From Stichopus chloronotus (Eukaryota > Echinodermata > Holothuroidea > Aspidochirotida > Stichopodidae), in NCBI GenBank assembly GCA_021234535.1, contig CM037836.1, positions 13,437,111 to 13,501,110 on the forward strand: 64,000 nucleotides of DNA, given 5' to 3'. The notes beneath the pieces were generated by a model. That model made no database searches and had not been told where the DNA came from. It saw only the letters and a list, made by a program, of their open reading frames with translations. Of the stretch, positions 3,001 through 47,000 are shown piece after piece. Position 1 is the stretch's first letter. Each line of letters begins with the position of its first letter. A program made the position numbers and the translations under genes.

Positions 3001-3673
3001 AACCCAGATGCTGCCTTTTGGGTTGCGTTCGGTACAGGCAAACATTTTTCCTACTTCCACGTCAACCAAATCTGTATGGCACTTGGGGAAGACACATCTA
3101 GAGCACTTCCTGTTTTCCACAGTTTCACTGGATGTGATACCACATCGGCTTTCTACCGTAAGGGTAAAAACGTGGCATGGGATGCCTGGAAATGCTACCC
3201 TGCTGTGACTCAAGCGTTTTCCTACATGGCAATGAATCCATATGCCAGGCTGGAGACAGAGACCCAGCACTTCAAACTCCTGGAACGCTTCATTGTTGTT
3301 CTTTATGACAAGACCAGTAATCTTGAGTCCATTAATGAGGCGAGAAGAGAGCTGTTCTGCCAAAAGAACAGACCCATGGAGAACATCCCTCCCACACAGG
3401 ACGCTCTTTTACAACATTCAGAACGCGCGGCGTTTCAAGCAGGTATATGGACCACCAGCGACTTGGCTATACAGGGGAGTCCTAATCCAGAGGGGTGGGG
3501 ATGAACTCGGTGTGGAGTCAATCAGCCATGGGTTCCAGTGTGGATTTGGACTTGTAAAGTGTGGATGTAAGAGCAACCGTGGATGTAGTGGTAGGTGTGC
3601 ATGCAAACGAGCTCACTGGAGGTGCACTGAGTTGTGTAGCTGCAACTGTGACAAGCGAGTATCCAGGGAATAA
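1..3673 (+). pseudogene. Broken copy of an invertebrate multicopy protein: XPG/PIN-like motifs plus CXC cysteine cluster
   Basis: One long intronless coding region runs in from the left edge (frame 1 is open from base 1) and ends at 3673. It is broken by in-frame stops at 745-747 and 2812-2814. Frameshifts lie near 1222-1228 (frame 1 to 3), 2656-2680 (3 to 1) and 3490-3505 (1 to 2). The C-terminal third (2848-3504) has the order HEEADTQ, then VDTDVIVI (about 2944), then FTGCDTTSAF (about 3130). This resembles the acidic order of XPG-I/PIN-like nucleases (EA..Q, D.D, GCD). After the last frameshift comes a dense cysteine cluster (about 3540-3660) like a Tesmin/TSO1 CXC motif. I recognise it as a family of large uncharacterised proteins with many copies in cnidarian and other invertebrate genomes. 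No function is established; nuclease relatedness is inferred. The absence of introns and the high copy number fit a mobile or retrocopied gene. This copy is almost certainly dead. Confidence 0.75.
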
Positions 3674-4468
3674 TACTTACGTAAAGAGGTCAAATCATCT
3701 GTGTTGTTAAATAGATGCTCTTGATCAGTTAGAGTTCCCAGCACAATCTATAGAATCTATGTGTTGTCAGGAGTCTCCTATGCATATATGTTTAGTACCG
3801 GTGTAGTGAATTTTTCTATGAGGGGGGGGGGGGTAGTTTTCTGCCATAAAAGCAGACATGCTATCTATATACTATTTTGCAGGACAATACATGGAGATGA
3901 GCTACTGTTGTTATGAAATTGTGTAGTGAGTTAGTTGTGTATTAAGTTGTGTAATTATATGCATACTTTTCAAAATTCATCTCAACAGGAAATCGTTTCA
4001 CCAATTTTCGCTACTGGCTGAGTTTTTAAGGGGCTGTACCCTCTAGATCTACTCTTCTACCGCCCTTGTTGTAGGTCACTTCCAGTTCACCTCCACAGGG
4101 AGTCACAATATATATATCAGACAATATGTACAATAGTTACCATGTCAATGAGTTTGGACCGGTCATTAGAAGAGCGCCCTCACCTTGAAATGAACTGCAT
4201 ATGTGACAATATTCTGTGGTTGTACACTCCTGACAATGGATACATCCTGTTTTGACCAGCAACATTACTTAATTACTTCATTAAGTCCAAATCCTAAAAT
4301 TTCATTATTTCAGCGGCCATTTTGAAAAACGCCCTCTATTTGCTAAAACATACATCTAAATTTTGGCAACCCTTCCAAAATGTATTTTGTATGACCCAAG
4401 GAGCTACCAAAATGAATTTGGTGCTTTTGTCCAGAGTGTCCACATTAAGTCGCTAAGCTGCCTGACTA
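3674..4468. other. Non-coding gap after the CXC pseudogene
   Basis: There is no open frame with recognisable protein similarity here. The stretch is AT-rich, with a G homopolymer around 3821-3832 and short (TA)n and CA-like runs. No promoter or RNA gene was seen. Confidence 0.5.
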
Positions 4469-4580
4469 TTGAGATAGAGTGTTTACGAGCAACCGTCACA
4501 CACACATACACACACACATACATACCCACACATGACATCAGGACTGCATAGCTTCCCCTGCCTACGGCAAGGAATCAAAA
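4469..4580 (+). repeat. Dispersed CA-repeat/hairpin element, copy 1
   Basis: It starts with TTGAGATAGAGTGTTTACGA, continues through a CA-rich microsatellite, and ends with an imperfect hairpin (GATTCC-type arm pairing with GGAATC, inner TGCC/GGCA, loop TAC) followed by AAAA. A second copy in the same orientation lies at 25597-25715. The two share both ends and differ mainly in the length of the CA tract. The class (SINE-like or MITE-like) cannot be decided from two copies. Confidence 0.7.
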
Positions 4581-4987
4581 ATGGTCGTATTATTTACTTT
4601 AATAAAAGAGTTATTCCAGATAAGTAGGGTTTCAAAGTTACTAACGGGGGTGTGGTAACAGATAGTAAACCAAGAGCGAACTACGTCTGACACAAAATTA
4701 TTTTTAATTGTAGGTAGATCAGTAAAACTACAATTACACCTGAAAAGAAGACTTTTTCCAAATGTAATAAGAGATTTATTAAAAATGAATTATTGCCGAA
4801 TAATTGCCAACTCTTCTAACCTATACGCAAACAATTATTACACCGATTTTCCAGTCACAGGGTGTGAGTAAAGAAATCATGAATGTTACTCGTTCCAAAT
4901 ACTTGCTTTTCTCCTCAAACCCATCTCGGACCGACGATAGAAAAAAAAAAAATTAAAATAAGAAATCAAAAATGTCTAGATAAAAAA

Positions 4988-5071
4988 GTCTACGACACCC
5001 AGTATTCCTAGGCGGTCACACATCCAAGTACTGACTGGGCTCGACGTTGCTTGACTTCGGAGATCGGACGA
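4988..5071 (-). pseudogene. 5S rRNA pseudogene, 5' end missing
   Basis: Antisense 5S sequence from the 3' end (GTCTACGACACCCAGTATTC in plus orientation) up to about nt 35 of the gene. The first ~35 nt are lost, and spacer (AAGTAGTAAATATC) follows directly. It also carries point changes in the ICR part (for example the GGTCACACATCC stretch). It cannot make a normal 5S rRNA. Confidence 0.8.
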
Positions 5072-5320
5072 TAAGTAGTAAATATCAACCATTTATAATA
5101 TATGAAACAGTAAAAAATGAATTATTGTCGAATAATTGCCAACTCTTCTGACCTATACGCAAACAATTATTACACCGATTTTCCAGTCAAAGGGTGTGAG
5201 TAAAGAAATCATGAATGTTACTCGTTCCAAATTCTTGCCTTACTCCTCAAACCCATCTCGGACCGACGATAGAAAAAAAAATAAAATAAAATAAGAAATC
5301 AAAATTGTCTAGATAAAAAA

Positions 5321-5421
5321 GTCCCAGGCGGTCTCCCATCCAAGTACTGACTGGGCTCGACGTTGCTTGACTTCGGTGATTCGACGAGAACCGGTATTTT
5401 CAACGTGATATGGTCGTAGAC
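5321..5421 (-). pseudogene. 5S rRNA pseudogene with internal deletion
   Basis: The 5' part of the 5S is complete up to the leader at 5421. Around 16 nt near the 3' end of the gene (the TACGACACCCAGTATT part in plus orientation) are deleted, which breaks the terminal helix. It lies head to tail with its neighbours in the array. Confidence 0.8.
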
Positions 5422-5693
5422 ATCATCAGTAGTAAATATCAACCATTTATAATATCCGAAAAAGTAAAAAATGAATTATTGTCGAATAATTGCCAACTCG
5501 TCTGACCTATACGCAAACAATTATTACACCGATTTTCCAGTCACAGGGTGTGAGTAAAGAAATCATGAATGTTACTCGTTCCAAATTCTTGCTTTTCTCC
5601 TCAAACCCATCTCGGACCGACGACAAAAAAAAAAACTAAAAAAAAAAAACAAAAAAAAATTAAAATATGAAATCAAAATTGTCTAGATAAAAA

Positions 5694-5789
5694 GTCTACG
5701 ACACCCAGTATTCCCAGGCGGTCACCCATCCAAGTACTGACTGGGCTCGACGTTGCTTGACTTCGGTGATCGGACGAGAACCGGTATTT
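5694..5789 (-). pseudogene. 5S rRNA pseudogene truncated at an inversion point
   Basis: Intact from the 3' end of the 5S to about nt 23 (CCGGTATTT), then joined abruptly at 5790 to spacer of the opposite orientation. The 5' ~22 nt are missing. The junction marks where the array changes strand. Confidence 0.8.
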
Positions 5790-5947
5790 AGACATTTTTG
5801 ATTTCTTATTTTAATTTTTTTTTTTTTCTGTCGTGATTTCTTTACTCGCACCCTTTGTCTGGAAAATCGGTGTAATAATTGTTTGCGTATAGGTCAGAAG
5901 AGTTGGCAATTATTCGACAATGATTCATTTTTTACTGTTTCATATAT

Positions 5948-5954
5948 TATAAAT
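5948..5954 (+). promoter_or_regulatory. TATA-like box about 30 bp upstream of the 5S gene
   Basis: TATAAAT sits 30 bp before the first base of the 5S gene at 5978. Many invertebrate 5S genes use such an upstream element together with the internal control region. The other near-complete 5S copies (16095-16210 and 27382-27499) have lost this segment. Confidence 0.55.
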
Positions 5955-5977
5955 GGTTGATACTTACTACTTATGAT

Positions 5978-6095
5978 GTCTACGACCATATCACGTTGAA
6001 AATACCGGTTCTCGTCCGATCACCGAAGTCAAGCAACGTCGAGCCCAGTCAGTACTTGGATGGGTGACTGCCTGGGAATACTGGGTGTCGTAGAC
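5978..6095 (+). rRNA. 5S ribosomal RNA gene, apparently intact
   Basis: 118 bp with the full 5S layout. The ends (GTCTACGAC and GTCGTAGAC) pair to form helix I. The internal control region (GAAGTCAAGCAACG, then CAGTACTTGGATGGGTGA) is intact, and a T-run follows at once. A TATA-like element lies at -30. Compared with the other copies only isolated differences are seen (for example GACTGCCTGG where others have GACCGCCTGG). It is the only copy here with gene, upstream box and terminator all present. It could be a functional orphan of a 5S cluster; transcription cannot be shown from sequence. Confidence 0.9.
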
Positions 6096-6101
6096 TTTTT
6101 T
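6096..6101 (+). terminator. Pol III T-run terminator of the 5S gene
   Basis: Six T residues immediately follow the 5S 3' end, the usual RNA polymerase III stop signal. Confidence 0.7.
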
Positions 6102-6430
6102 ATCTAGACATTTTTTATTTCTTCTTTTAATTTTTTTTTGTTCTATCGTCAGTCCGAGATGGGTTTGAGGAGAAAAGCAAGAATTTGGAACGAGTGACAT
6201 TCATGATTTCTTTACTCGCGCCCTTTAACTAGAAAATCGGTGTAATAATTGTTTGCGTATAGGTCAGAAGAGTTGACATTTTGGAGGCACCACCCGGATG
6301 GTGTGCTAGGTGGTCCCTTCGACTCTGGCAACTAGAGGGCGCACTATCAAAACCACCGAAAGCAACAGAGCTCAAAGTACTAGATGTACAGCAACAGGAA
6401 GAGTAAAGTGCCGATGCTGAGGAAAACAAG

Positions 6431-7724
6431 TTGAGTGCCATATCTACCCCAAAGATGGATGAGGTGGTCCAAGAAGTCCAGTTGGCCCTGCAACAGTGTA
6501 CAGAGGAGCAGGTGCTAGTAGTGGGTGAACTGTTGAACCTAGAAGAAGTAAAACAAGCCAAGCTAGAAGGTAAGGGCCTTCCATTGCTATTAAGATTAGT
6601 TAATAGATATCTATAGGCCTTAGATGAGCAGACAGCGCAGAACCAGCTTCTGCTTAACAACCTGAGGGACAAATTAGAAAGCTTCAGGTTGGGGACAGTA
6701 GAACCGGTGAGAGAGAGCCCTGTCAGCTCAGCTGAAATTAGCCACCCACCGTCCAGTGAGGGCAAACCCATGTTGGACAGAGTACAGTAGGAAACTTTCC
6801 TTGGAAAAGGGAGTTTAAGATATCTGGTCAGATAGGAGAGCCAGGGCAGAAAGATAGACTCAGCTTTGCCAGCTTGGCCCGACAGATTGAGAGTGGGTCC
6901 AGAAAGGGTTTTAGCCCAGAGGAAATCATTGAGGCAGTTATTAGGGCAGTAGTTCCAGGCTCTGGTCTTCGCAATTACCTTGAAGGTAGGTCAAATATCA
7001 CCCTCCCTGAACTACGAAGGGTTCTCAGAGCCCATTTCCAGGAGAAAGAAGCAACCACCCTGTTCCACGAACTGTCAACGGCTATTCAAGCTCCAAATGA
7101 AACAGCACATTCCTTCATTCTACGAACCATGGATCTTAGACAAAAGGTTGTATTTGCATCAAAAGAGGCAGGGGCAGGTGTTGTGTACGGTCATAAACAG
7201 GTGCAACAAATGTTTTTACACACAGTTTTCACTGGCTTGCAGAGTGAGTATGTCCGGCATCAGATGCAGCCACTCCTCAGGAACCAAGCTACCACTGACG
7301 AAGAATTATTGGAGAGTCTCTCACTATGTGTGAGCCAGGAGGCTGAAAGATTTAATAAGATGTGAAAGGCCAGAGTCAACCAAGTAACTGCACCACCAGT
7401 GAAGGAGGCCACAAAATCTAGTGAGACTGATAAACCAAAACCCCAGAAAAAAGGGAAACAAAGCCAGTATCTTGGGAGGACATTCAAACTGGGGTAAGGG
7501 AAATAATCAGAGCAGAAATCAGTGCCCTACAACAGGACCCACCCCAAGACAAGCCCAAGAAGCCAACAAGGGAGTGGGGATGTAAAAACTGTGTTGATCA
7601 AGGCAGAGGAAGGGAGTGCACTCATTGCTTTAAGTGTGGTAGTGAGGACCACTTCCAGAGAGGCTGCAAACAAGGCAGAAATCTGGGAAACGGGCGAAGG
7701 CCACCCGAGAGGGACATCGAGTGA
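6431..7724 (+). pseudogene. gag: gypsy gag (capsid and CCHC nucleocapsid), broken
   Basis: An N-terminal glutamate-rich segment (6431-6616) is followed by stops. A capsid-like domain is open at 6874-7365 in frame 1. After the stop at 7363-7365 the protein continues in frame 3 from about 7460 and contains a zinc knuckle of pattern CX2CX4HX4C at about 7626-7667. Frame 3 closes at TGA 7722-7724. A GGGAAAC heptamer lies at 7685-7691, 30 bases before that stop, and frame 2 (pol) is open across the overlap. The role is the virus-like particle shell and RNA packaging. The copy is clearly non-functional. Confidence 0.7.
7685..7691 (+). promoter_or_regulatory. Candidate -1 ribosomal frameshift heptamer at the gag-pol overlap
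   Basis: G GGA AAC lies in register with the gag frame (X XXY YYZ), shortly before the gag stop at 7722-7724. A -1 slip lands in frame 2, which is then open through the whole pol region. This is the usual way retroelements make Gag-Pol. No downstream pseudoknot was modelled. Confidence 0.5.
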
Positions 7725-10700
7725 CCAGTTCTATAGCAAAGTCCCAATTATCGGATCAGAGATCTAGGGTGCCAGCTAGTGCCACTTGTGGATTAGCAAA
7801 TTCTAAGAAAAGAAAGAAAATGGCACGGCTGGTGGGAAAGAAATGCTTAGTTAATTGTACGTTGAATGGTATACAGACTACCGCCTTATGGGATACAGGG
7901 GCCCAAGTTTCATTGATATGTGAAGATTGGGTACGACAGTCTATGCCCAATGTTCCTGTGAGACCAGTCGAGGAGTTGCTGGACACTGAGGGGTTACACT
8001 TGAATGCTGCCACTGGCACTCCAATTGGGTACAAGGGCTGGATAGAAGTAGCTTTCTGTATACCCTATGAAGCTACAGTTGGTGACAATGGACTATGTGT
8101 ACCGATGTTGGTGACGGAAGAATCATTAGATAACCCAATTATTGGTTATAATGTAATAGAGGAGATTGCAAGAGACCAACCTGCAAAGGCTACTCAGAAG
8201 GCATTTTCTACCCTCTTACCTCAGATGAACCATGTTCAGGTCAACAATTTGATTGCAGTTCTACAGAGCACAGACTCGGAAGAAATCAGTGCTGTCAAAT
8301 CAAACCGAAGTGTTACCAAGATAAGGGCAGGAGAAACTGTACTTGTGCAGTGTGTCACCCATGCTCATACAGAAGTGGAATGTACAGCCTTGTTTGAACC
8401 AGAGGGAGGCCACCAATCACCAGAGGGCATTGTTTGTCATCCAACACTGGTGAAGGTAAATCCTGGAAACTGTTCCCGTATAGAGGTACCAGTTACTAAC
8501 AATAGTTCAAGGGATGTGGTTTTGCCAGGCCGACTGTGTGTAGGATACCTCTGTAGCATCAGAACCATTCTTCCAGGAGAATTCCTAAATGGCCTTTCAT
8601 CAGAAGTCAACACAACAGCTGGCATACATGGAGTGGAAGCCTGTATCTCAGAAAATGGTGCAACCTGTGAAAAGGAAAAATGGTTACCGAATGTAGACCT
8701 GTCTGACCTGACTGATGAACAGAGGTGTCTGGCTGAACAAATGTTAACAGAAGAATGTCATGCTTTTGCTAAAAACGATGATGACCTTGGCACCATACCG
8801 ACATTAAAAATGAAAATACAGTTGACCGATGATATACCAGTCCAGAAATCATATATGGCTGTACCTCCACCACTCTACAAGGAGGTAAAGGAGTATGTAA
8901 AAGATCTCATCAGTAGGGGATGGGTGAAGAAATCACAGTCATCCTATTCTTCCCCCATGGTCTGTGTCAGAAAGAAAGATGGAACCTTACGACTATGCAT
9001 TGATTACAGGCAACTTAATTCAAAGACAATTGCAGACAGGCAACCCATACCAAGGGTACAAGATATTCTAGATTCGTTGGGCGGAAACCGATGGTTCTCC
9101 ACTTTAGATCAGGGAAAGGCTTACCATCAAGGTTTTGTGGATGAAAGCTGCCAACACCTTACTGCCTTCATTACCCCGTGGGGCCTGTATGAATGGGTTA
9201 GAGTACCGTTTGGGTTAAAAAATGCACCAGCTGCATTTCAGAGATGTATGGAGTCGTGCCTTGAAGATCTCAATAATGAGATATGTGTCACTTATTTAGA
9301 TGATATTTTGGTCTATGGAGAAAATTTCGACCAACATGTAACAAGGCTAAGACAGGTCCTTCACAGAGTGCAGGAACATGGAATGAAGTTAAAAGCTGCC
9401 AAATGCAAATTGTTCAAGCAGCACGTCAGATACTTAGGGCGTGTTATCTCCACAGAGGGGCATATGGCTGATCCAAATGACACTGCGGCACTACAGGCTC
9501 TGAAAGAGAGTGAACCCAAAACTGTTGGAGATGTGAGAAAATTGATGGGCTTTATCGGTTATTACCGATGCTATATCCAGGATTTCTCACGATTGGCTAA
9601 GCCATTGTATGATCTCTTGTCCCCTCCAGACAAGAAAAGCAAGAGTAAAGGGAAAATGGGACAGCTTCCCTCCAGGGCTCCAGTGGATTGGACAGAAAAG
9701 CATCAGGAGCTCATGGAAATGTTGGTAGATAAACTAGCCCAACCACCAGTGATGGCATTTCCTGAGTATGACCAGCCCTATATTGTCCATACTGATGCCT
9801 CTCAAGAAGGCTTGGGGGCTGTTCTCTATCAAAGACAAAAGGGTAAACTGAGGGTTATTTCGTATGCATCTAGGTGTTTATCACCAGCCGAGAAGAATTA
9901 CCACCTCCATTCAGGTAAGCTGGAATTCTTGGCATTGAAATGGTCTATTACCGAAAAAGTCAGGGAATATTTGTTTTATGCCCCATCGTTCCAGGTTTAC
10001 ACTGACAACAACCCTCTCACCTATGTGTTGTCATCAGCCAAACTTAATGCTTCGGGCCAGAGATGGGTTGCGGAGCTTGCAGATTTTAATTTCTCTATCA
10101 AATACCGGCCTGGGCGAAATAATACTGATGCAGACACCCTCTCTAGGATGCCACTACAGATAGAGAATTTCATTGATGAGTGTTCAGAGGAAGTCAACCT
10201 GTGTGCAGTCCAGGCAGTAGGAGCTGCCGTGCAGACCCAAGCTCAGGGTGAACAGTGTCCCTGGGTAATGGCCATCACAGGAAATCCAGATCAACCCGGA
10301 GACATGGAACAACAATCAACCACCATGAACCAATTCAGTGCAGAAGAAATACTAAAGGCACAACTGGCTGATCAACCAATTGGGAGGATCATGAAATTGA
10401 AAAGAAAGGGTAAAAGACCAAGCACTGTTGATTGGAGAAAGGAGTCTGCTCCCACCCGCTTAATGCTGAGAGAGTGGAACAGATTAAGTATAGAGAAAGA
10501 TGGCTTGTTGTACCGGCAAACACCAACCCGACATCAACTAGTATTGCCTGCCGTTTTCAGGGATAGAGTATATCATGACCTTCATGTAGAAATGGGACAT
10601 ATAGGCATAGACAGAGTTATGGATCTTGCCAGGGAACGATTTTATTGGCCAAACATGGAACGTGATGTTGAAGCTTTCGTAAAGAACAAGTGCAGATGTC

Positions 10701-12236
10701 TGTACCAGAAAAAGCCAGCTCGTTCCCTTAGGGCCCCATTAATACCTATTGTGACATCTGAGCCCATGGAATTGGTCTCTATTGATTTCCTGCATCTTGA
10801 GAAGAGTGCTGGGGGCTATGAATACATCTTAGTGATTGTAGACCACTTTACAAGGTTTGCACAAGCCTACCCCACAAGAAACAAGATGGGCAAGACTGCT
10901 GCTAACATTGTTTTTAAACAACTTTGTTATGAGGTTTGGTTTCCCAAAAAGAATTCTTCATGACCAGGGTGGAGAATTTCAAAACAAGCTCTTCCACCGT
11001 CTAGAGGAACTTTCGGGTGTCAAAGACTCAAAAACAACGCCGTATCACCCAGAGTGTAATGGGAAAGCCGAGAGATTTAACAGGACATTGTTGAGCATGT
11101 TGAGGACACTGGCAGATAGTGACAAATGTAGGTGGAGTGACCACTTGCAAAAGGTGGTGCATGCTTATAATGCAACAAGGAACGAAGCAACAGGTTATTC
11201 TCCGATGTATCTCATGTTTGGACGTCATCCTCGTCTACCAATAGACCTAGAATTTGGTCTTAGGAATGAACAGGATACTCAGAGGGACCCAGTGAAGTTT
11301 GTGCAACATTGAAAAGAGGCCATGAAAGAAGCTTATGACTTGGCTAAACAAACTGCCTCGAAGAACTCACAGAAAGGGAAAAGGTACTATGAAAAAGGCA
11401 AGCTGCCTTCCCCTCTTGAGCCAGGTAACAGGGTCCTTGTCAGGAATGTAGGCAAGACTGAAGGTCCCAACAAACTTGGTTCATTTTGGGAAAACCAAGT
11501 GTATCGTGTTGTGAAAAGACATTCACCGGACCTGCCAGTATATGATGTTGCCCCAGAGGATGACAGGGGGAGACAGAAAACAGTTCATCGTAATATGCTC
11601 CTGTCATGTGAACTGTTCACACCAGAATTACCCACAAAGACCAGGAGACCTCAGAATCGTAAGCCAAAACAAAAGACACATATGGTTGAGGATGATTCAG
11701 GGTCTGATTCTGCGAACGATGAATTTTACCTGGTGAGGGAACCACTCTCCCCCATCAACCCTCCTCAGAACCAGTCAGTGATACCCAATGATGACATCAA
11801 TTCAAACCTAGGTGATGATAGATCACAGGAAGTGACTTCACTACAGAGGTGTACACCAGCACTGAATAAAGACACTGATGCACAAGGTCTGGGCATTCAA
11901 GATGGACCAACGGCAGGAGACCCAGATTCACAGGAACAGCGCAGTGCTAGGTACCCAATCAGGCAGAGGCGCCCAAAACAGATGTTCACTTATAACCAAC
12001 TGGGGGTACCTCGTCAGTCCCATCCTGAGGTTAATAATGTGCAAACAAGCGATCATAGTATGAAGTCATGGGATGGCATTCCTTGGCAACAAATTCCACC
12101 AATGTACCAGGGATCAGTATGGTATTTACCCCCCAGCCAGTTGTATAATTCAGCAAGTGGTCAGATGTCCATCCCACTGCAGCAGCCACCGAAGTACGAG
12201 ACGTACCATCCACGGACGTATCAATCAGTATGGTAG
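7721..12236 (+). pseudogene. pol: gypsy pol: protease, reverse transcriptase, RNase H, integrase (one frameshift, one stop)
   Basis: Frame 2 is open over 7721-10963 (1,080 codons; open upstream to about 7691). The aspartic protease motif DTGA is at residues 58-61. The RT carries YLDD at about residue 525. RNase H starts near HTDAS (about residue 690). The integrase zinc-binding HHCC region lies around residues 950-985, and the first catalytic Asp is near 10780. At about 10930-10940 the frame shifts to 3, where the second Asp (HDQGGEF) and catalytic Glu follow. A TGA at 11310-11312 then interrupts it, and the C-terminal tail resumes over 11322-12236. There is no obvious chromodomain. All core catalytic residues are present, so the lesions look fairly young. 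Assignment to Ty3/gypsy rests on domain order; the lineage within it is not determined. Confidence 0.9.
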
Positions 12237-13884: not shown

Positions 13885-15897
13885 GGGTTACAGTATGACG
13901 TCATTTTACTACAAGAAACTTTCTGGGACAGTACACACCATGCTCAGGCTATACAAGAGTGGGAAGGGAACATTTTCTCTTCCTTCTCGCCCATCCTTCG
14001 GCGCAGAGGGGTGAGCTGCTTGATTAGAAAAGACAGCGATATTGAGGTAAACTTTTGTACATCCGATAGCAATGGACGGATTCTATACCTAAATATTACT
14101 GTAGATGAACAACCGTTATCGATCTTTAACATCTATGCTTCTAACTCCCCGAGCGATAGAAAACTTTTCTTCGAGGAACTAGCAGGAAAACTGCAAAATA
14201 TTTCTGACCCAATCGTCTTGGCTGGAGACTTCAATACTGTTCTCAACAGCTATCTCGACAAATATCCAACTTTGCCTTATAGCGACTCATCGAGAAAATC
14301 TTTGAAAAATATCATGTCGGATCATCAGCTCACAGACTTCTGGAGAGAGAGGCACCCTCATGTAGTCCAGTTTACGAGGAAATCCAGCAACAACACAAAC
14401 ACGTCAAGAATCGACAGATTCCTCATCAATAAAAATCTGAGCTCTTACGTCAAATCATGTTGTATCTCATGTTATCAGGACTCTGATCACGACATCATAG
14501 AACTCAGTTTTGATTTCTCTGTGATTCCAAGAGGCCCCCGCGTTTGGATTTTTAACAATTCATTACTTGAAAACAATGCGTTTTGTTCGGAAATTCGTGC
14601 TCTCGTAGAAAAAGAAAAATTAAACTGTCCTTCGCGACATCGACTTTCTCCAGTGGTATGACAATCTAAAACTCGCCTTTCAGAAAATTTCATTAAAGTT
14701 CGCTAACCTTAAGAACCGACTTCCTCCCTCTCGTACAAAGAGTCTGAGAAAGCAAATATGTTACGAAAGAACAAAAGCCCAAAAATATCCAGACTACGAC
14801 ACAACCAGATTGGCAAATCTCGAAGAACAACTGAGAGAAGAAACCCGAGAGAAGATTAGGGGAGCAGCTTTACGTTCAAGAATCAAATGGTTCGAGGATG
14901 GGGAGCGCTCCACTAGTTTCTTTCTTAACCTCGAAAAATCGCATCAAATCAAAAAAGTTATGCGACAGATTCTCACCGATGATGGCGTGCTTGTAACTGA
15001 GCACAACAGTACAATGCAAGAGCAAGTTCGCTTCTGTAGTGATCTATATACTTCGGAACCATCCGACGACTCGAAGAGAAAGATACTGTTAAACCATCTA
15101 TCAAAGCGTTTGTCTGAGCCTGCTTCTAAATCTTGTGAAGGTAACATTACTGTCCAAGAGTTGAAAAACGCCCTCTTTGATATGGATTCTAACAAAAGCC
15201 CTGGCTTAGACGGGCTTACCAGCGAGTTCTATAAGGAATTCTGGGACGTGTTGTGCGATATTTTTCTCAGACTTACAAAAGAAATTTATAAATCGAAACA
15301 ATTATGTGATACAATGAAAACTGGTCTCATTACACTTATTCCTAAGAAAGGAGATCTTAGGAGGCTTAAAAACTGGCGACCAATCAGCCTCCTTAACTCG
15401 GATTACAAAATTATTACGAAAGCACTTGCTAACAGAATATCAAATGTAATTGGGACTCTAGTTTCTGAAGATCAAACTTGCTGTGTTCCTGGTAATGACA
15501 TTGCAGATAATGTTCTTATTATGAGAAATATTGTTGATTACGTTACTGACAATAACCTTGCATGTTACGTACTCAAAATTGATCAACTCAAAGCTTTCGA
15601 CAGAGTTAATCATGACTACCTCTTCGAGGTTCTCACGTCAATGGGATTCGGTCCCGATCTCATTCAATGGATTAAAATTCTTTATACCGATGTCCATGGT
15701 TGCATTAAGCACAACGGCTACCTATCCGAAAAATTTCAAATCCAGAGGGGGGGTCCGACAAGGCTGTCCTATCTCTGCTATCTTATATGTTCTGTCTGCC
15801 GAGCCTTTTCATGATGCTATCTACTGTTGTAAAGATATAAATGGTATTGAATTTATGGATCATGAGGCCAGAATGTTTCAGCATGCAGACGATACAA
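13885..15897 (+). mobile_element. Tx1-clade LINE ORF2 fragment (endonuclease and reverse transcriptase), inactive
   Basis: Frame 1 (13885-14661) encodes an APE-type endonuclease with YDVILLQETFW near its start, GDFN, SRIDRF and SDHD. A frameshift near 14640-14680 leads into frame 2 (to about 15745), which carries the RT N-terminal half: SPGLDGL, LIPKKGD, NWRPISLLN. A further frameshift in a G-run at about 15745-15752 moves into frame 3 (RQGCPIS). The catalytic box reads HADD (15882-15893) instead of the usual YADD. Coding sequence ends at about 15897, where it runs straight into 5S spacer, so the RT thumb and 3' end are missing. The motifs match the Tx1 branch of L1-like non-LTR elements. Confidence 0.85.
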
Positions 15898-16298
15898 CTT
15901 TTTTCTATTTTAATTTTTTTTTTTCTATCGTCAGTCCGAGATGGGTTTGAGGAGAAAAGCAAGAATTTGGAACGAGTAACATTCATGATTTCTTTACTCA
16001 CACCCTTTGACTGGAAAATCGGTGTAATAATTGTTTGCGTATAGGTCAGACGAGTTGGCAATTATTCGACAATTCAATAATTACTACTTATGATGTCTAC
16101 GACCATATCAGGTTGAAAATACCGGTTCTCATCCGATCACCGAAATCACAACGTCGAGCCCAGTCAGTACTTGGATGGGTGACCGCCTGGGAATACTGGG
16201 TGTTGTGGACTTTTTTGTCTAGACATTTTTTATTTCTTATTTTTTTTTATCTATCTTCGGTCCGAGATGGGTTTGAGGAGAAAAGCAAGAATTTGGAA
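15898..16298 (+). repeat. 5S rDNA unit between the LINE and laminin arm A
   Basis: Post-5S tail, spacer, leader, a 5S copy and a second, truncated tail, all in plus orientation. It starts at the break in the LINE RT and ends at ATTTGGAA (16298), six bases before arm A homology begins. Part of the leader, including the TATA-like segment, is deleted. Confidence 0.85.
16095..16210 (+). pseudogene. 5S rRNA pseudogene, near full length
   Basis: 116 bp. A 2-nt loss falls inside the box A region (GAAATCACAACG versus GAAGTCAAGCAACG), and other changes are seen (ATATCAGGTTG, TTCTCATCC). The TATA-like upstream element is deleted. Probably transcriptionally dead. Confidence 0.85.
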
Positions 16299-27152: not shown

Positions 27153-27520
27153 TGTATGAAAAAGTAAAAAATGAATTATTGTCGAATAATTGCCAACTCT
27201 TCTGACCTATACACAAACAATTATTACACCGATTTTCCAGTCAAAGGGTGTGAGTAAAGAAATCATAAAAGTTACTGGTTCCAAATCCTTGCTTTTCTCT
27301 TCAAACACATCTCGGACCCACGATAGAAGAAACAAAAAAAAAAAAAGGAAAGGAAGAAATCAAAATTGTCTAGAAAAAAAAGTCTACGACACCCAGTATT
27401 CCCAGGCGGTCACCCATCCAAGTACTGACTGGGCTCGACGTTGCTTGACTTCGGTGATCGGACGAGAACCGATATTTTCAACGTGATGTGGTCGTAGACA
27501 TCATAAGTAGTAAATATTAT
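27153..27520 (-). repeat. 5S rDNA unit at the outer end of arm A
   Basis: One minus-strand unit: leader (GTAAAAAATGAATTATTG), spacer, AT-rich tract, complete 5S and a short upstream stub ending near 27520. It directly follows the end of arm A/B homology at 27152. Confidence 0.85.
27382..27499 (-). rRNA. 5S rRNA gene copy, full length, upstream element missing
   Basis: 118 bp, complete at both ends, with an intact internal control region. It is followed on the minus strand by a T-run. Differences from 5978-6095 include GACCACATC and AATATCGG. Homology upstream of the gene stops after about 20 bp, so the TATA-like box at -30 is lost. It may be a pseudogene by promoter loss; the transcript itself looks foldable. 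Confidence 0.75.
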
Positions 27521-29899: not shown

Positions 29900-30734
29900 A
29901 TGGTGGAGAATTCCTTAAAAAAAACCGTGTTCTCCCAGTTTTGTAAGAGTTTCATGACTAAGAACCTAAGATTCTTCGCATTCCTCAGTCTCTGTAGGAA
30001 GAGCATTCTCCTCTATTTGGCTACTAATACCGGTTTCCCGTTTACTTCCGTGGTCCTTTCTTTCAGCCTGTGATTTCTTTCAACGTTTTCACTTTTCAGT
30101 GTGAGGGGTGGGATTCGTCTTGTTGGCAAACGGTATGGGACATTCACGAAAACTATGATTAGAAACTTTGTCATCTTATCTTCGAAGGAACAGTTTTTAG
30201 ATGCATGTCCAATCTCTTGACATTTGAAGCATACAACCTGGCCTCACTGTTTAGCTTTGCGTCCTCCTTTTCCGCACTTCATGAGGATTTTAGGGTAGTG
30301 TCCCGCATTTCTGATCCAACAGTTTCTACCTCCAAAGCGGGGCGACGGAACTTGAGGAATGCCCGCCGTCAGTTCCATCTGGTACTGGCGAATACAATTA
30401 AATAACCCTGGATATTTCTCAAAGGTCATGAAACGGCCGCTCAAAACTTTCCCCTACCGAGCCAACACTTATCTTACAATGTTATCGTTCAACTCGTGTG
30501 GAACATGCAGTACAGTAACAACTGTCGCGGAACCGGGATACATACTAGTCAGCCGTCTCGGACAGAGACCTGCGCCCAAAATCTCTTCCTGAGTTTAACC
30601 GAACGGCAGGTAATATCCCACACTTTACCAGGTACTTGTTGTACCGTAAGAAGGTCTTTCGAAACATCTACTCCAAGATCTTTCAAAAACTCGGGTAGAA
30701 GAGTGTGAGAAGACGCCATCTTGTCACTTTTCAT
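29900..30734 (-). mobile_element. LINE 5' end with ORF1 fragment, joined to a 5S gene
   Basis: The minus-strand ORF1 starts with ATG at 30734. It reads as an RRM-like stretch (around 30540-30430, TVLHVPHELNDN) and then a CCHC zinc knuckle (CFKCQEIGHASKNC) at about 30220-30180, with stops and shifts between. This layout is typical of ORF1 in L1/Tx1-type LINEs. The block 29900-29960 resembles 33290-33340, indicating a related copy there. The start of ORF1 lies directly at the end of a 5S half-gene (30735-30792), with no 5' UTR between. No ORF2 was found downstream, so the element is 3'-truncated or rearranged. Confidence 0.6.
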
Positions 30735-30792
30735 TGCTTGACTTCGATTATCGGAAGAGAACCGGTATTTTCAACGTGGTATAGTCGTAGAC
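30735..30792 (-). pseudogene. 5' half of a 5S rRNA gene, interrupted by a LINE
   Basis: Nucleotides 1 to about 58 of the 5S (ending GAAGTCAAGCA/A) with some changes. The upstream 5S leader follows at higher coordinates (30793-30850). The 3' half is replaced by the LINE ORF1 start at 30734. Confidence 0.8.
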
Positions 30793-30907
30793 ATGATAAG
30801 TAGTACATATTAAACATTTATAATACATGAAGAAGTCAAAACTTAACTATTATCGAATAATAACTGTCAACTCCTCCGTCCTGGATGCACTGACATTCCA
30901 GCCAAAG

Positions 30908-31623
30908 GGTGTAAACAGTGGCGGCGCAATGGGGGGGGGGGATGAGGGGGAATTTGCCCCCCCCCGATTGTTTCCTTGCCCCCCAGTTCCCCCCCCCCCA
31001 GTTGCTCTCACCCTTCCCAATCAGATCTTGTACTCATCCAAAATTAATTTAATCACAAAACTATGTATTGGCATTGGACTGAATAACAACAGCTTCCGGG
31101 GAACCATGATTGATTAATGCCTAATTTATGTTACACAGGCTGCCAGTTTTCATATCATGCCCGTAGCCACTTCAACTGTGGCTACGGGGAGAAGTGAACT
31201 GTCAAAGAATAATGGTAAGTATTGCACATTTTTATAGAATAAAGTGACTGGAATGGAAGTGTATGTAGCCTGTGTGTGTGTGTGTGTACTCGGTGGCACC
31301 GCGTAAATGTGAAATGGTACTCCCAAAGAAAAAAGTTGGAACCTTGGAGTACGGTCAACCGAAAAAATAAATAATATAAAAATAAATAATATACCTCTCT
31401 TGGGACTTAATTTTCCACCCAGAGATATGCTAAAACCTCAGAGCTTCCGCGAGCTTCGCCCTCTGAACCCCACCACGGGCCCCTGGACCCCACCCGCACG
31501 GCCTCGCCCTTCGGGCTCGGTTTTACGCTGCGCGCGAAAACCTTTGCCCCCCGACATTTTGCCCTGCCCTCAGTTTGCCCCCCCCCCCAAGTCTGACATT
31601 TTGGCGCCCCCACTGGGTGTAAA
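30908..31623. mobile_element. hAT-type non-autonomous DNA transposon with 8-bp target duplication
   Basis: The element spans 30916-31615 (700 bp). Its ends are CAGTGGCGGCGCAATGG and, inverted, CAGTGGGGGCGCCAAAA. It is flanked by perfect 8-bp direct repeats GGTGTAAA at 30908-30915 and 31616-31623. CAGTG termini and 8-bp duplications are hallmarks of hAT elements. There is no transposase ORF. G/C homopolymer runs lie near both ends, and a perfect 11-bp hairpin sits inside. It sits in 5S-spacer sequence, which continues on both sides when the element is removed. Confidence 0.9.
31160..31188. repeat. Perfect 11-bp hairpin inside the hAT element
   Basis: CCCGTAGCCAC and GTGGCTACGGG separated by a 7-nt loop. 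Confidence 0.8.
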
Positions 31624-31654
31624 TGAAGCAAAAATGAAAGTTACTCGTTCCAAA

Positions 31655-32120
31655 TTCGTGATCTTATATACAAGTGTGTACATGGACATAACAAAGAGTG
31701 GGAAATAAATATAGCCTTTACAAGTATTTACAGCCTAATTAATGTGAAATAATATCACCTTTCCATGATCGAAATTTGTGCTACTCACATTACATTATCC
31801 TTATGATAGGAAGGATTAACTCTTTTTTAACTATTTGCACGAACATTGAGAAAGATGCAAGCCCTTACAGTAATGACAGTAAGTTTCATTTAGCTTACTT
31901 TACGTTTATAATATACATTTTGCTAAAATATTTACTATATGGTTCGCATTTTGGTTGTCGAAGTAGCTCATTTGAGACAAACTACGTAATATTCTTTTCC
32001 CTACCTTTTCGGGATGTGCAATTTAAACAAAAGGTCTCCCTTGTTAAAGCCTACAATTCTTTAGGAAATAATTGTTAATAATTATATTTATTATAATGAT
32101 AACAATAATTAATAATTCTC
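31655..32120 (-). mobile_element. 5'-truncated LINE 3' end inside 5S spacer
   Basis: It shares a 3' UTR block (TTTACAAGTATTTACAGCCT in plus orientation) with 34550-34590 and 35325-35345. 5S spacer stops at ACTCGTTCCAAATTC (31654), and AT-rich 5S tail resumes near 32121 (AAAATAAGAAAT). Only 3' untranslated sequence is visible. Confidence 0.55.
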
Positions 32121-32142
32121 TATAAAAATAAGAAATAAAAAT

Positions 32143-32179
32143 TCCAAGTACTGACTGGGCTCGACGTTGCTTGACTTCC
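32143..32179 (-). pseudogene. Internal/3' fragment of a 5S rRNA gene next to a LINE 3' end
   Basis: On the minus strand it starts GAAGTCAAGCAACG (about nt 48) and runs to about nt 84. Its upstream side is the 3' terminus of the LINE at 32181. The remaining 3' part of the gene is deleted. Confidence 0.8.
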
Positions 32180-32180
32180 G

Positions 32181-34330
32181 TTTTTTCAAGTTTATTGACC
32201 ATCCTTTTACAAAGGAACAAAAGTTATATACATAATGTAATCATGAATTACACACTACTTACAATTATTTACATGAAGTGACTCATTGCATTATATTTAT
32301 GTAACATAATGTTTAATCAATAATGTAACGTTCATTTTGTAATACATATTTATTGGCAATACATAATATAATATAGAATGATTAGAAAAACATTAACACT
32401 AAATAAAGGAAGCATTGGCTTAACAAAAAGTGAACCAAGCTTGACCCTAAAATTGTCAAGCCCCAATTCCCCCTCTCCCTTTGGGAGACAAACAACATTA
32501 CGAGCTACTAATTCGGGTTTGTTTACTCCCTACAAAAACGAAAAAACGACTCTTTAAATTTCCTTTACAAAGAATTCAGGGGCAGGCCAAACAGGGGCAA
32601 CAAAATAAAATAAAGGGTGCACAACTGTATTAATTACATGAACTTTACCAAGAAGTGAGAGGTATCTATTGTTCCAGCTTTTTAAAATATTAGTGGCTTT
32701 CTCGAGCATGTTAAACCAGTTGACATGAACAACACTTCTCAAACCAAAAGTAACACCAGTAACTTTAATTTCATTGGTGTTCCATTCAATATTTACAGGA
32801 ATGGTACTTTTTGCCAGCCTCCCAAAGTCCAAGCCGCAAGTCTTATACATGTTAATGGACGTGCCTGTAGCATGCTGGAAAAGGGAAAAAACGTTGAAAA
32901 AGTTAGTGACGTCATTAATCGAACTAGCCACGCAAGTAGCATCATCTGCGTACTGTAAAAACTTTAACGGGCCAGTGTACGTACTGAAATTCTTAAAACC
33001 AATAATATCATTACAATTCTCAATATATCTTGCAAGAGGCTCCGCAAAGAGGGAGTAGAGAGAGGGCGACAGCGGGCAACCTTGACTCACCCCTCTGAGG
33101 ATAGGCGAACAGGATCTGAAAGCATCCCAGGGTAGAACGTGAGTTTGTTACATGTGCCCTTGGTGAAACATTTCCAGCATTTCAAAATACGTACTTTTTA
33201 AGTAATAGAGTAGACGTACTTTTAAACAGTGATGTGACAGAGTGTTAAGTGGTTCTTATGACCAAATAATATGGATTCTCTGGCCATCAATTTAAAAAAA
33301 AACCTGTGTTTCTCCCCTTTTGAAAAGTTTCATGACCAAGAACCTCGATGTCGCTATTTTTCATGAATTGGGGGATGCCTCGTCTAAACTAGAACAACAA
33401 ATACTACAATTCCATTCACAATTTGCAGTTTTAAAGATCTCGTCCCAAGAGGTTTCTTGCACAAGCGTAGGCTAATATCAAACTAGGTTTTTGGGAGGAA
33501 AAAAAAAAACAGATCGTTTCTTCGGCTCACGGCTGACCAAGCTGTTACATTTCAATGAGAGGCGAGCTTAATCATAATAACAAAAAGTAAGTAAAAACGG
33601 TTCATGTTGTCTCGCACATGGAAGAGCCGAGCCCTGGTGTAATAAGGAACAAACTTTTTCTTGTTAGGGATCGCCCACGTGTACCACCTGCCACTTTTAA
33701 AATTGTCCCATGCTTCAATTCGTCACTGCTGGATTCTCTTCCCACTTGTATTTAAAAATTCTGCGTCCTTGAAACTTTCAACTGTTGGTTCTTTATTCGA
33801 TTCTTCAGGTTAATCAGGAATAACTTCGGTCATCTTTGTCTTCGGGATCGTAGGTTTGGCTTCATCTGGTGTCGGAGGGTCTTGCATTAGGCGTACATGG
33901 CGTTGGCTCTGGAACATCGACCGTACTCAGGTCAGTCATTTCTTCGTTTTCAGTTGGACTTACTTTACTAGCATTGCAATTAAAACAATTGTGTCCAAGC
34001 CCTCGCCTGGCACTTGTAAAACTTACCTTTAGGGCACTTACTTTCGGGGTACCCCTGTTCCGTACTTTCTTTGCATTTGACACTCTTTCATGAGGTGGTC
34101 TTCTTCCAAACAAAGAATGACACTCTCTTCTCTGGGCATCGTGGTGTAAACGAAGATGGATCCCACTAATAAGCACTGAGTACGGTGGGCTCTTTCTGTC
34201 GGCGGGCAACTCAATCCTATCCCACTTTCAGTAGATAGGAAAATCCTCGTATAGGGTTTTGGGTCCGATCGCTCCTAATGTTTTTTGTAGGGTACATGTA
34301 AGGAGAAAGTTTAACAGACAGATCCTCATC
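32181..34330 (-). mobile_element. LINE remnant (ORF1 zinc-knuckle part, RT core, 3' UTR) ending in a 5S gene
   Basis: Minus strand. ORF1-like sequence at about 34330-33290 contains a CX4HX4C knuckle (CLEEDHLMKEC, about 34110) and frameshifts. RT core at 33130-32554 begins [16 protein letters not shown] and contains FLQYADD. The 3' UTR runs to 32181 and ends in an AATAAACTTGAAAAAAC-type tail. The endonuclease and N-terminal RT are missing, so this is either an internally deleted element or two adjacent fragments. The RT motifs match L1/Tx1-type elements. The 3' tail touches the interior of a 5S gene. Confidence 0.65.
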
Positions 34331-44000: not shown

Positions 44001-47000
44001 ACTCTTTGCCATTTGGTTTTAATATTTAGCCTACATTTGGATGCAGCTTCCTCTAGCTGTTTTACTCCTTTTGTTTAAAGTGATTGTGTCTGCACTGAAG
44101 GACCAAGGATAAGATTGTCTGATCTTAACTTTTCTGTTTTTTGTTAAATGTACACCCAAGGTTGTACATGGATAGAATACATATTTCGATAAACGAAAAT
44201 GACAGTGACTACTTTGAAAAGCAGCGGGATTGGCATCAGAACAGAAGAAACAGTCATAATTCAAAATTATTGTCCTTTTATATGAGCTCCTTAATAGTGT
44301 GCTATAACAAATATTGTAACAGCACGGTCTCACTATTCAAGTCATCACTAGTTGGTTACGAACAGGAACTGTAACATTTGGTGAAAGGAGATATATCGAT
44401 GTACTGTATTTACAAATACAGGTACTGTTACCCACAGTAGAGTAGAAACTGATCACATCGTTGCGGCCGTCAGTGATCCTGAGTTGTTTTGACTACCTGA
44501 ATATTCAATACTACTACTGTAGTATATACTTCCCATCGGCTTGTTCAGAGAGCCACACAGTTGACTTGAATGAAACTGTCATCCACTTCATCATCATATT
44601 GTGTAAACTTTTTGCCGTTATTTCAGAAGCATTTGAAATCAGACGACAGAATCAGCCAATTCAAACCTATTAATTTTCCAAAATGTCTGGATGGTGCCAT
44701 TACTGTAAAAGCCTTTCTAAACTTTTGGACATGAAATCTCAGTGTGGATACACAATATCACTTTAAGATGGCCATTCCTGTTGAGATATCACTTTAAGAT
44801 GGCCATTCCTGTTGAGATATCACTTTAAGATGGCCATTCCTGTTGAGATGTCACTTTAAGATGGCCATTCCTGTTGAGATGTCACTTTAAGATGGCCATT
44901 CCTGTTGAGATATCACTTTAAGATGGCCATTCCTGTTGAGATGTCACTTTAAGATGGCCATTCCTGTTGAGATGTCACTTTAAGATGGCCATTCCTGTTG
45001 AGATGTCACTTTAAGATGGCCATTCCTGTTGAGATATCACTTTAAGATGGCCATTCCTGTTGAGATATCACTTTAAGATGGCCATTCCTGTTGAGACATC
45101 ACTTTAAGATGGCCATTCCTGTTGAGATATCACTTTAAGATGGCCATTCCTGTTGAGATGTCACTTTAAGATGGCCATTCCTGTTGAGATGTCACTTTAA
45201 GATGGCCATTCCTGTTGAGATGTCACTTTAAGATGGCCATTCCTGTTGAGATGTCACTTTAAGATGGCCATTCCTGTTGAGATGTCACTTTAAGATGGCC
45301 ATTCCTGTTGAGATGTCACTTTAAGATGGCCATTCCTGTTGAGATGTCACTTTAAGATGGCCATTCCTGTTGAGATGTCACTTTAAGATGGCCATTCCTG
45401 TTGAGATATCACTTTAAGATGGCCATTCCTGTTGAGATATCACTTTAAGATGGCCATTCCTGTTGAGATATCACTTTAAGATGGCCATTCCTGTTGAGAT
45501 ATCACTTTAAGATGGCCATTCCTGTTGAGATATCACTTTAAGATGGCCATTCCTGTTGAGATATCACTTTAAGATGGCCATTCCTGTTGAGATGTCTCAT
45601 TCAGAGACAGCTTTGTACTGTTGTGTGTGCAGGACTTTTGAAAAACCAAGGTTTGTAAAATAAATGTTTGTAAGCAGACCTGTCAACTCTCCTGGTTTTA
45701 CCAGGGGACTACCCTTTTTTTTGTACAGATCTCTCATCCTCCTGGTTTCATATTTCCATCTCCCAGTTTTATAAGTCCATTTGCGACATTTCTGAAAGTG
45801 ACCAAAACAGCACAAGGCTTACTTGAGTAATTGGCCATAAACTAATGTATATTGCATTGAAAATCAGATCCTTTTTTACCAAATTTTCATCTGTTATACA
45901 GTAGTGTAGATTAGTATTATTACACCAACAGAGGTTGCTTTGTAATTCATTACTTTATGAAGGGCTGTGCATACAGAAGAGCATACATGTACTTGTAATG
46001 TATGTGAAAATAGGCCTACATGGGCAACTTGTGCTGTGGGTGATGATTCTCTCCGTGGCAGTAATGTTTGTTGAAAATTACCCAGTCTCCCTAGATTTTT
46101 TACTAATCTTCTGATTTTTTTGGCCCTGTAAAATGAAAATCTCGGTATTTTTTGGTGACACAGTTTGGCAGGTCTGTTGTAAGGGAGCCAAGGGAGACCC
46201 TCACAAATCTAACCTACTGTAAGGTCATCTCAACTGAGCATGCCATTGCTACCCATGCATTGAAGGAGAACAAGCAAAGAGTAATGCTCCAGTGTAGGCT
46301 ACTGTACGTATCTCTTGGCCTTCCACAGCCCATACACAGATCGTATGCACTAAAGCATGTGAGATGCGCGAAGCTTTGTGAACCTACGATGATCTTAGGT
46401 TAGATGTGTGAGGCTTCCCTAACTCTGTGTGCGTACAGTACTGTAGACCTGCAAAGATGTTTAAGGTTCACAGAATCAATTAAAGACAGCTGTGCAAGCA
46501 ATATATCAATGTACTGTGTGTGCCTTTGTATACAAAATATGGGTATGGTCTTTGCACAGTGTGTCTACTGTACAGTACTTTGTTTGCTATGTATGTGTAC
46601 ATGTGTAGCCCATTACTCGATATGTGCATAAGGTAAAATTTGCTAATTCAACTGTAGGAGACTTCTTCCGAAAACATACATCGTACATGTACTGTACCTT
46701 GTTTTGCATAACAGTTGTTGCAAAATGATAAATAGCATAGTAAACAAAAAGCTCTTACCTGCAAAAGTCACAATTGCTACATGGTTGTTGGAATCACTTT
46801 CAGGAAATTCTTTTCTTTTCAAATTTCTTGAAAGTGTCTGGGCAACTACAGTATTATGATGACATTTGTACTAGTGTGATACCGTACTTAGTATTGTAGT
46901 CAACAGTTCTGCCTGGATGTGCACAGCTTTGATGCCACCCAAAAAGTTGTTCTATTCCATATATACTGCATAATTTGATAAACTGATCTAGTAGGCTGCA

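Follow-up and report, generated by a model that had tools for sequence, protein, structure and literature searches.

Decayed LINE insertions at a fixed position inside 5S rRNA genes of the sea cucumber Stichopus chloronotus

The window analysed here is a stretch of 64,000 nucleotides (nt) of Stichopus chloronotus DNA, corresponding to G000:C8:13437111-13501110 of a 719-Mb assembly, and it contains two places at which a long interspersed nuclear element (LINE) abuts the interior of a 5S ribosomal RNA (rRNA) gene. Both are interpreted, with a probability of about 92%, as independent and decayed insertions of a LINE lineage that encodes an apurinic/apyrimidinic endonuclease (APE) and inserts specifically inside 5S genes. 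The meeting of LINE and 5S sequence had been noticed in an original prediction made from the letters of the window alone, and the observation is confirmed. All 5S positions are numbered from a reference gene at 5978..6096 on the plus strand (Rfam RF00001 match, 109.5 bits), with nt 1 at window position 5978.

The two junctions are both read on the minus strand. At the upstream junction, the 3' end of an element assigned to a family termed family A (32181..32373), which comprises a 3' untranslated region (UTR), an AATAAA signal and six A, ends ...AATAAACTTGAAAAAA at 32181, with a longer tail context of ...GGTCAATAAACTTGAAAAAA. The 5S gene resumes at 32180 with nt 46, and this 3' flank of the insertion extends to nt 83 (32143..32180; blastn match 32181-32143 = nt 45-83, 97.4%), has one mismatch at nt 47 and lacks nt 84-119. 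The predicted meeting of tail and 5S sequence at 32181 is thus found, but the 5S restart lies at nt 46 and not at about nt 48. At the downstream junction, nt 1-59 of a 5S gene (30734..30792) form the 5' flank of a second, related LINE, termed A2, which follows nt 59 directly, with an in-frame ATG at 30734-30732. The prediction had described this 5S half as intact up to about nt 58-59 and followed by the start of open reading frame 1 (ORF1); its end and its neighbor are as described, but the half is decayed (blastn 91.5%). The A2 portion is an ORF1 fragment (29920..30733) that begins at the junction and carries internal stops and a CCHC motif recognized by eye. It is matched by tblastn with the ORF1 of a full-length family A copy at 49-51% over the main stretches and by protein P0007 at 44%. 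The cut points of the two junctions overlap by 14 bp (nt 46-59), of which the exact part accounts for the 12 bp originally predicted.

Several features place these junctions in genuine 5S repeats. The sequence preceding nt 1 of the downstream half (30793..30882 on the minus strand, read from 30882 to 30793) matches the 5S upstream spacer and includes TATAA at -30, and the 3' half is followed by short fragments of spacer. Chance does not account for the match: six 20-mers around the site were found with at most 3 mismatches, and none was found in 100 shuffles. The locus has a 99% identical inverted copy 68 kb away (G000:C8:13399116-13400918) and is counted once because of this duplicate.

The element behind the upstream junction is an internally deleted copy whose reverse transcriptase (RT) region (32390..33129, minus strand) is 93.0-93.7% identical to the full-length family A copy, with a Pfam RVT_1 match of 6.4e-11 for 32554-33147. 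Its 3' end lies within an 81.6% match, flank included, to positions 5556-5800 of that copy, with the tails aligned. By these matches the window tail piece is a member of family A. The reading of both window ends as a single insertion or as one close family is rejected on the low ORF1 identity, which is 51% over 121 amino acids (aa), 49% over 47 aa and 38% over a third stretch between A2 and family A; A2 is 44-49% identical to P0007 and to LINE-C, a further element described below. A 53-bp patch common to 29967-29917 and 33345-33295 was considered as proof of one family and rejected; it lies outside family A, because the match of the upstream copy to that family begins only at 33129. Among the best 40 of 787 candidates in a genome search, A2 matched only itself and its inverted duplicate, except for the last 65 nt of the query past about 29920, which belong to a common high-copy repeat. 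A2 is interpreted as an older family in its own right that occupies the same position in 5S (nt 59). Because the cut points thus derive from two independent insertions, they make a stronger case for a fixed site.

Tabulating the flanks of genomic copies supports the proposed 5S specificity. A 589-bp query from the 3' end of family A yielded 13 matches, with all 13 candidates scored; 11 of these reach the 3' end, and 5S sequence follows in nine. In eight of the nine, 5S resumes at nt 46; the copy in the window and its inverted duplicate are among these and have one mismatch each. In the ninth (C74:9262), CCGA is followed by 5S nt 66 onward, which is read as a junction at nt 46 with a later 16-nt deletion between two copies of CGA; this is simpler than a second target site, which was rejected. 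Removal of duplicates leaves seven distinct structures among the nine, so that insertion at one position in 5S genes is found in 9 of 11 3'-complete copies. The terminal A run is 6-7 nt long in all nine 5S-flanked tails, compared with 12 in C3:6380281 and 9 in C12:25556354. A 522-bp query from the 5' end gave 13 matches from 12 candidates. The 5' end is reached by four of them, and three of these follow 5S sequence at 98-100% identity: C8:13426021 (nt 61), C74:25088 (nt 59) and C8:13419912 (nt 61). The fourth, C3:6381168 (85%), lies outside 5S, and the remaining nine are from other families (eight, at 66-75%) or from elsewhere in the C3 copy (one, 87%).

Copies of family A in far better condition than the window copy are present nearby, in a neighborhood examined over 70 kb to the left and 20 kb to the right of the window. 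Here, a palindrome with inverted arms (G000:C8:13385323-13417601 and window 13893-46249, 99.2% identical over 31.7 kb), either real or an assembly artefact, encloses a loop of about 33 kb that is a cluster of 5S genes and LINEs. A full-length copy on the minus strand of this loop (C8:13426021-13420322) consists of 5S nt 1-61, AAG, ATGGCG..., ORF1, ORF2, a tail ending ...AATAAACTTGAAAAAAA and 5S nt 46-119, which gives a target-site duplication of 16 bp (nt 46-61). Its ORF1 encodes 460 aa with a CCHC zinc knuckle, and its ORF2 encodes an APE endonuclease, an RT and a zf-RVT domain and is disrupted by a stop codon and an extra segment of about 560 bp absent from other copies. The second full-length copy (C74:25086-19890, about 5.2 kb), on an unplaced 35.5-kb contig, has nt 1-59 plus G at its 5' end. 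Its identity is 98.8% over 3.8 kb and 97.0% in the final 1.5 kb; it carries a 14-bp duplication (nt 46-59) and lies in 5S repeats with a different spacer. These two copies have 5S sequence on both sides. Further copies in the loop include one with both ends and a deleted middle (C8:13419928-13419399), in which 19 nt, including a second copy of 5S nt 54-61, separate nt 61 from the ATG. Another is 5'-truncated (C8:13431403-13429254), starts at element position 3104 and is joined directly to nt 46, and a duplicate pair (C8:13426931 and 13428374) starts at position 5210 after identical spacer. One further truncation lies at position 5128.

A number of observations weigh against insertion restricted to 5S genes. 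The copy at C3:6380281 (80.6% at the 3' end, 85-88% in ORF1) and the 56-bp tail at C12:25556354 (91%) are not in 5S sequence, and two ORF2 pieces on C1, 91-96% identical, lie in a tRNA-Glu array and end 133 nt before the 3' end. The matches listed in the 3'- and 5'-end searches include no family A end on C10, the site of 21 of at least 40 genomic 5S matches. The arrays themselves duplicate, as seen in one pair of copies and in the window locus, and truncated copies have differing 5' flanks (nt 46, nt 80, spacer). One could accordingly suppose that the element takes any repeated RNA gene and that the 5S cluster is one home of several, as relatives occur in tRNA or tRNA-like arrays on C3, C1 and C12, and LINE-C occurs both in 5S spacers and in another repeat. 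This explanation is unlikely: all six matches at 93% or more over the 3' query that include the 3' end are in 5S genes (four on C8, two on C74), as are all three 5' ends at 98-100%. Copies in unrelated sequence, named in the original prediction as its refutation, do occur on C3, on C12 and as the C1 pieces without a 3' end, but they are diverged, short or 3'-incomplete. Because the exceptions are of this kind, the evidence for 5S specificity is strong for family A proper and does not extend to its kin.

The variety of the copies also bears on the idea that a single chance insertion was spread through the arrays by unequal crossing-over and gene conversion, with no targeting enzyme involved. 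Duplication does occur here, given the 31.7-kb palindrome arms at 99.2%, the pair truncated at 5210 with its identical spacer flank and the window-sized duplicates, and gene conversion could have homogenized the tails to their uniform A run. Such spread is nevertheless improbable as the source of seven structures that share their 3' junction and differ at their 5' ends (nt 61 + AAG, nt 61 + 19 nt, nt 59 + G, nt 46 with truncation at 3104, and truncations at 5128 and 5210), that are distributed over C8 and C74 among 5S repeats whose spacers differ, and that are joined by the separate family A2 at the same nt 59. A misjoining of LINE reads with reads from the 5S arrays can be given hardly any weight, since copies on C8 and on C74, each with its private differences, share the junction to the base and the full-length copies carry target-site duplications, even though such arrays and palindromes pose assembly difficulties, C74 is unplaced and the window locus lies in the palindrome arms. 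Specific insertion inside 5S genes is the preferred reading.

The protein domains identify an APE-type LINE. In a single open frame, ORF2 combines Exo_endo_phos (5.3e-13) with RVT_1 (4.7e-27), joining an APE-type endonuclease to the RT, and also contains zf-RVT; ORF1 contains zf-CCHC (2e-07). An R2-type element, which would have a restriction-like endonuclease and no APE, is not indicated, as the APE domain is present. Compared with solved structures, the endonuclease-RT (EN-RT) portion of the full-length copy matches LINE-1 ORF2p best (1.1e-65; R2 1.4e-13), and so does the window RT (2e-08; R2 0.03). In a tree of 117 aligned rows, from which poorly filled rows were dropped, the full-length EN-RT pairs with P0014 (63.7% identity, support 0.998) inside a 24-row clade with support 1.0, and a second tree places the window RT in the matching clade (support 0.997). 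The trees include a U2-adjacent relative but no named Tx1 or L1 reference. Family A combines an APE-type endonuclease joined to an RT with a CCHC zinc-knuckle ORF1, as is usual in L1/Tx1 LINEs, and with target-specific insertion, and its membership in the Tx1 clade is likely. A protein search returned nine matches, of which the three named ones are all from sea cucumbers (two from Holothuria leucospilota, one from Apostichopus japonicus); a first protein search matched none of 74 candidates, and none of 146 stretches of viral contigs matched.

Family A resembles several known elements that specialize in RNA genes. R2, which occupies 28S rRNA genes, is likewise an rRNA-gene specialist; it is expressed as part of the host rRNA transcript, much as is proposed for family A below, and has a restriction-like endonuclease, in contrast to the APE type of family A. 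The closest counterpart by target is Mutsu, described as a 5S-specific LINE of zebrafish with two ORFs and a length of about 5.5 kb that resides in 5S genes (PMC11202950, PMC3706591); family A likewise has two ORFs, measures about 5.2 kb on C74 and resides in 5S genes. Mutsu has UTRs at both ends (PMC11202950), whereas family A has almost no 5' UTR. The hosts are a fish and a sea cucumber, and the likeness is one of target. Keno is an APE-type LINE that occupies a fixed position in a small RNA gene (PMC4640811); it shares these traits with family A and differs in its target, which is U2 and not 5S. Dewa is described as a target-specific element of RNA gene clusters in the zebrafish tRNA-Leu spacer (PMC3706591), and by this description it can be likened to the family A relatives in tRNA or tRNA-like arrays on C3 and C1. 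Dada-5S, a DNA transposon of fish 5S genes (PMC8869645), has the same target, but family A encodes an RT and an APE. Among the literature matches listed, no title or abstract concerns a 5S-specific LINE of echinoderms, with most subscription papers outside coverage. Family A looks like a new family within a known kind, the 5S-targeting LINEs, and is likened to Mutsu by target and not by sequence. It adds a 5S-specific sea-cucumber LINE to a niche in which the searched literature names only one fish element, and its insertion sites are known to the base, full-length copies are available, and several sister families are present in further RNA-gene repeats of the genome.

The sites and duplications suggest how insertion might proceed. 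The ORF2 endonuclease would nick the bottom strand of the 5S gene opposite the bond between nt 45 and nt 46, and the freed end would prime the reverse transcription of the LINE RNA, starting at its end, in the manner of the target-primed reverse transcription established for LINEs. A cut of the top strand 14-16 nt downstream, after nt 59-61, would then give the duplications of 14-16 bp. Folding of the 3' end revealed nothing beyond chance in four tails, which score no better than shuffles (z -0.57, 0.40, -0.34, -0.37). Each insertion breaks its 5S gene because the site overlaps box A of the 5S internal promoter (about +50 to +64). With these sites, copies and sister families, the ways in which an APE-type endonuclease acquires or changes its target become testable.

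The element starts 1, 3 and 19 nt before the ATG in three family A copies, leaving almost no 5' UTR, so that its RNA probably begins in host 5S sequence. It would be transcribed from the 5S gene in which it lies, using nt 1-61 as a leader that would also restore the junction of 5S and LINE wherever a new copy inserts. A more far-reaching proposal on expression, which may well be wrong, is that these LINEs have no promoter or 5' UTR of their own and that each copy is expressed as a chimera from the 5S start with its TATA-like box at -30; the target would then supply the insertion address and the promoter together, and related families might have moved repeatedly among 5S genes, 5S spacers and tRNA arrays. 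Consistent with this, the three family A copies and the window A2 all have an ORF1 that begins at the junction, nt 54-61 is duplicated before one ATG (the C8:13419928 copy), and a perfect 43-bp repeat, from -6 to +37 of the 5S gene, precedes an element termed LINE-B. The last two repeats resemble copied transcript leaders; slippage could also have produced both. The copies found here also make testable the expression of a LINE that lacks a 5' UTR of its own and lies inside a broken 5S promoter.

Other LINEs of this genome adjoin RNA-gene repeats as well. LINE-B, with ORF1 and an APE-RT ORF2, is present in the window at 13888-15899 (plus strand) and at G000:C8:13418980 (minus strand) and begins after 5S nt 37. 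It is a distant lineage, its nearest listed relative being 43% identical; its known copies are one locus and the corresponding palindrome copy, and its 3' junction is lost. LINE-C occupies one and the same position of the 5S spacer (TATTCCATATGGA) on C74 (L032 5157-502) and on C10 (L047), and three other copies, on C260 and C21, have a common but different flank. A tRNA-like array on C3 (L038, about 4250-6300) contains three types of LINE tail near GGAGACGT, one of which is a family A relative. At C1:14565001-14590000 (L036, L037, L040), numerous LINE fragments lie among tRNA-Glu and tRNA-Arg genes; some of them are 91-96% identical to the ORF2 of family A and lack its 3' end. The motif TCACCG is common to 5S and tRNA-Glu genes and is a candidate cleavage site; the C1 copies there lack the 3' end. 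Together, these arrangements are tentatively read as repeated target change among RNA-gene repeats by related families. Another LINE, at L001 2150-3678, has an A-rich tail followed by a partial U2 gene, GTATCTGTTCTTATCAG, and is a distant relative of family A ORF2 (32% identity). Since Keno is an APE-type LINE of U2 genes (PMC4640811), L001 looks Keno-like. Its contig is in a bacterial bin (symbiont of Taylorina), and a Keno-like LINE ending at a U2 small nuclear RNA gene points to animal contamination of that bin.

Five 5S genes in the window exceed the Rfam cut-off, among them a complete gene at 27381..27499 (minus strand, 105.8 bits), downstream of the LINE junctions and in the same orientation, and blastn detects additional broken copies. 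Genome-wide, at least 40 matches were found, 21 on C10, 11 on C8, six on C74 and one each on C22 and C11; with 47 scored of 15603 candidates, these counts are lower bounds. Of 23 5S starts examined, 12 have TATAA at -30 (three pairs among these being palindrome duplicates), including the starts that precede both full-length copies and the window nt 1-59 half. In the other 11, among them the start at the third family A 5' end, a one-letter variant of TATAA or a different spacer is present. Two 5S classes coexist in the genome, with terminal-stem pairs GTCTAC.../...GTAGAC at window 5978 and GCCTAC.../...GTAGGC at L032 (C74) 5611, and their spacers also differ; zebrafish 5S types are reportedly linked with different LINEs.

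In a permissive Rfam search of the locus, all non-5S matches fall within a G-rich repeat. An unrelated high-copy repeat lies within the 5S spacer, outside the LINE, at 30916..31615 on the minus strand, with 39 other full or partial matches among the best 40 of 2234 candidates. A tandem array with a repeat unit of 31 or 62 bp, detected by self-matches, occupies window 44755-45605 within a palindrome arm, and open frames resembling the gag and pol of a Gypsy-type long terminal repeat (LTR) retrotransposon, as judged by eye, adjoin the 5S cluster at window 6760-12236 on the plus strand.

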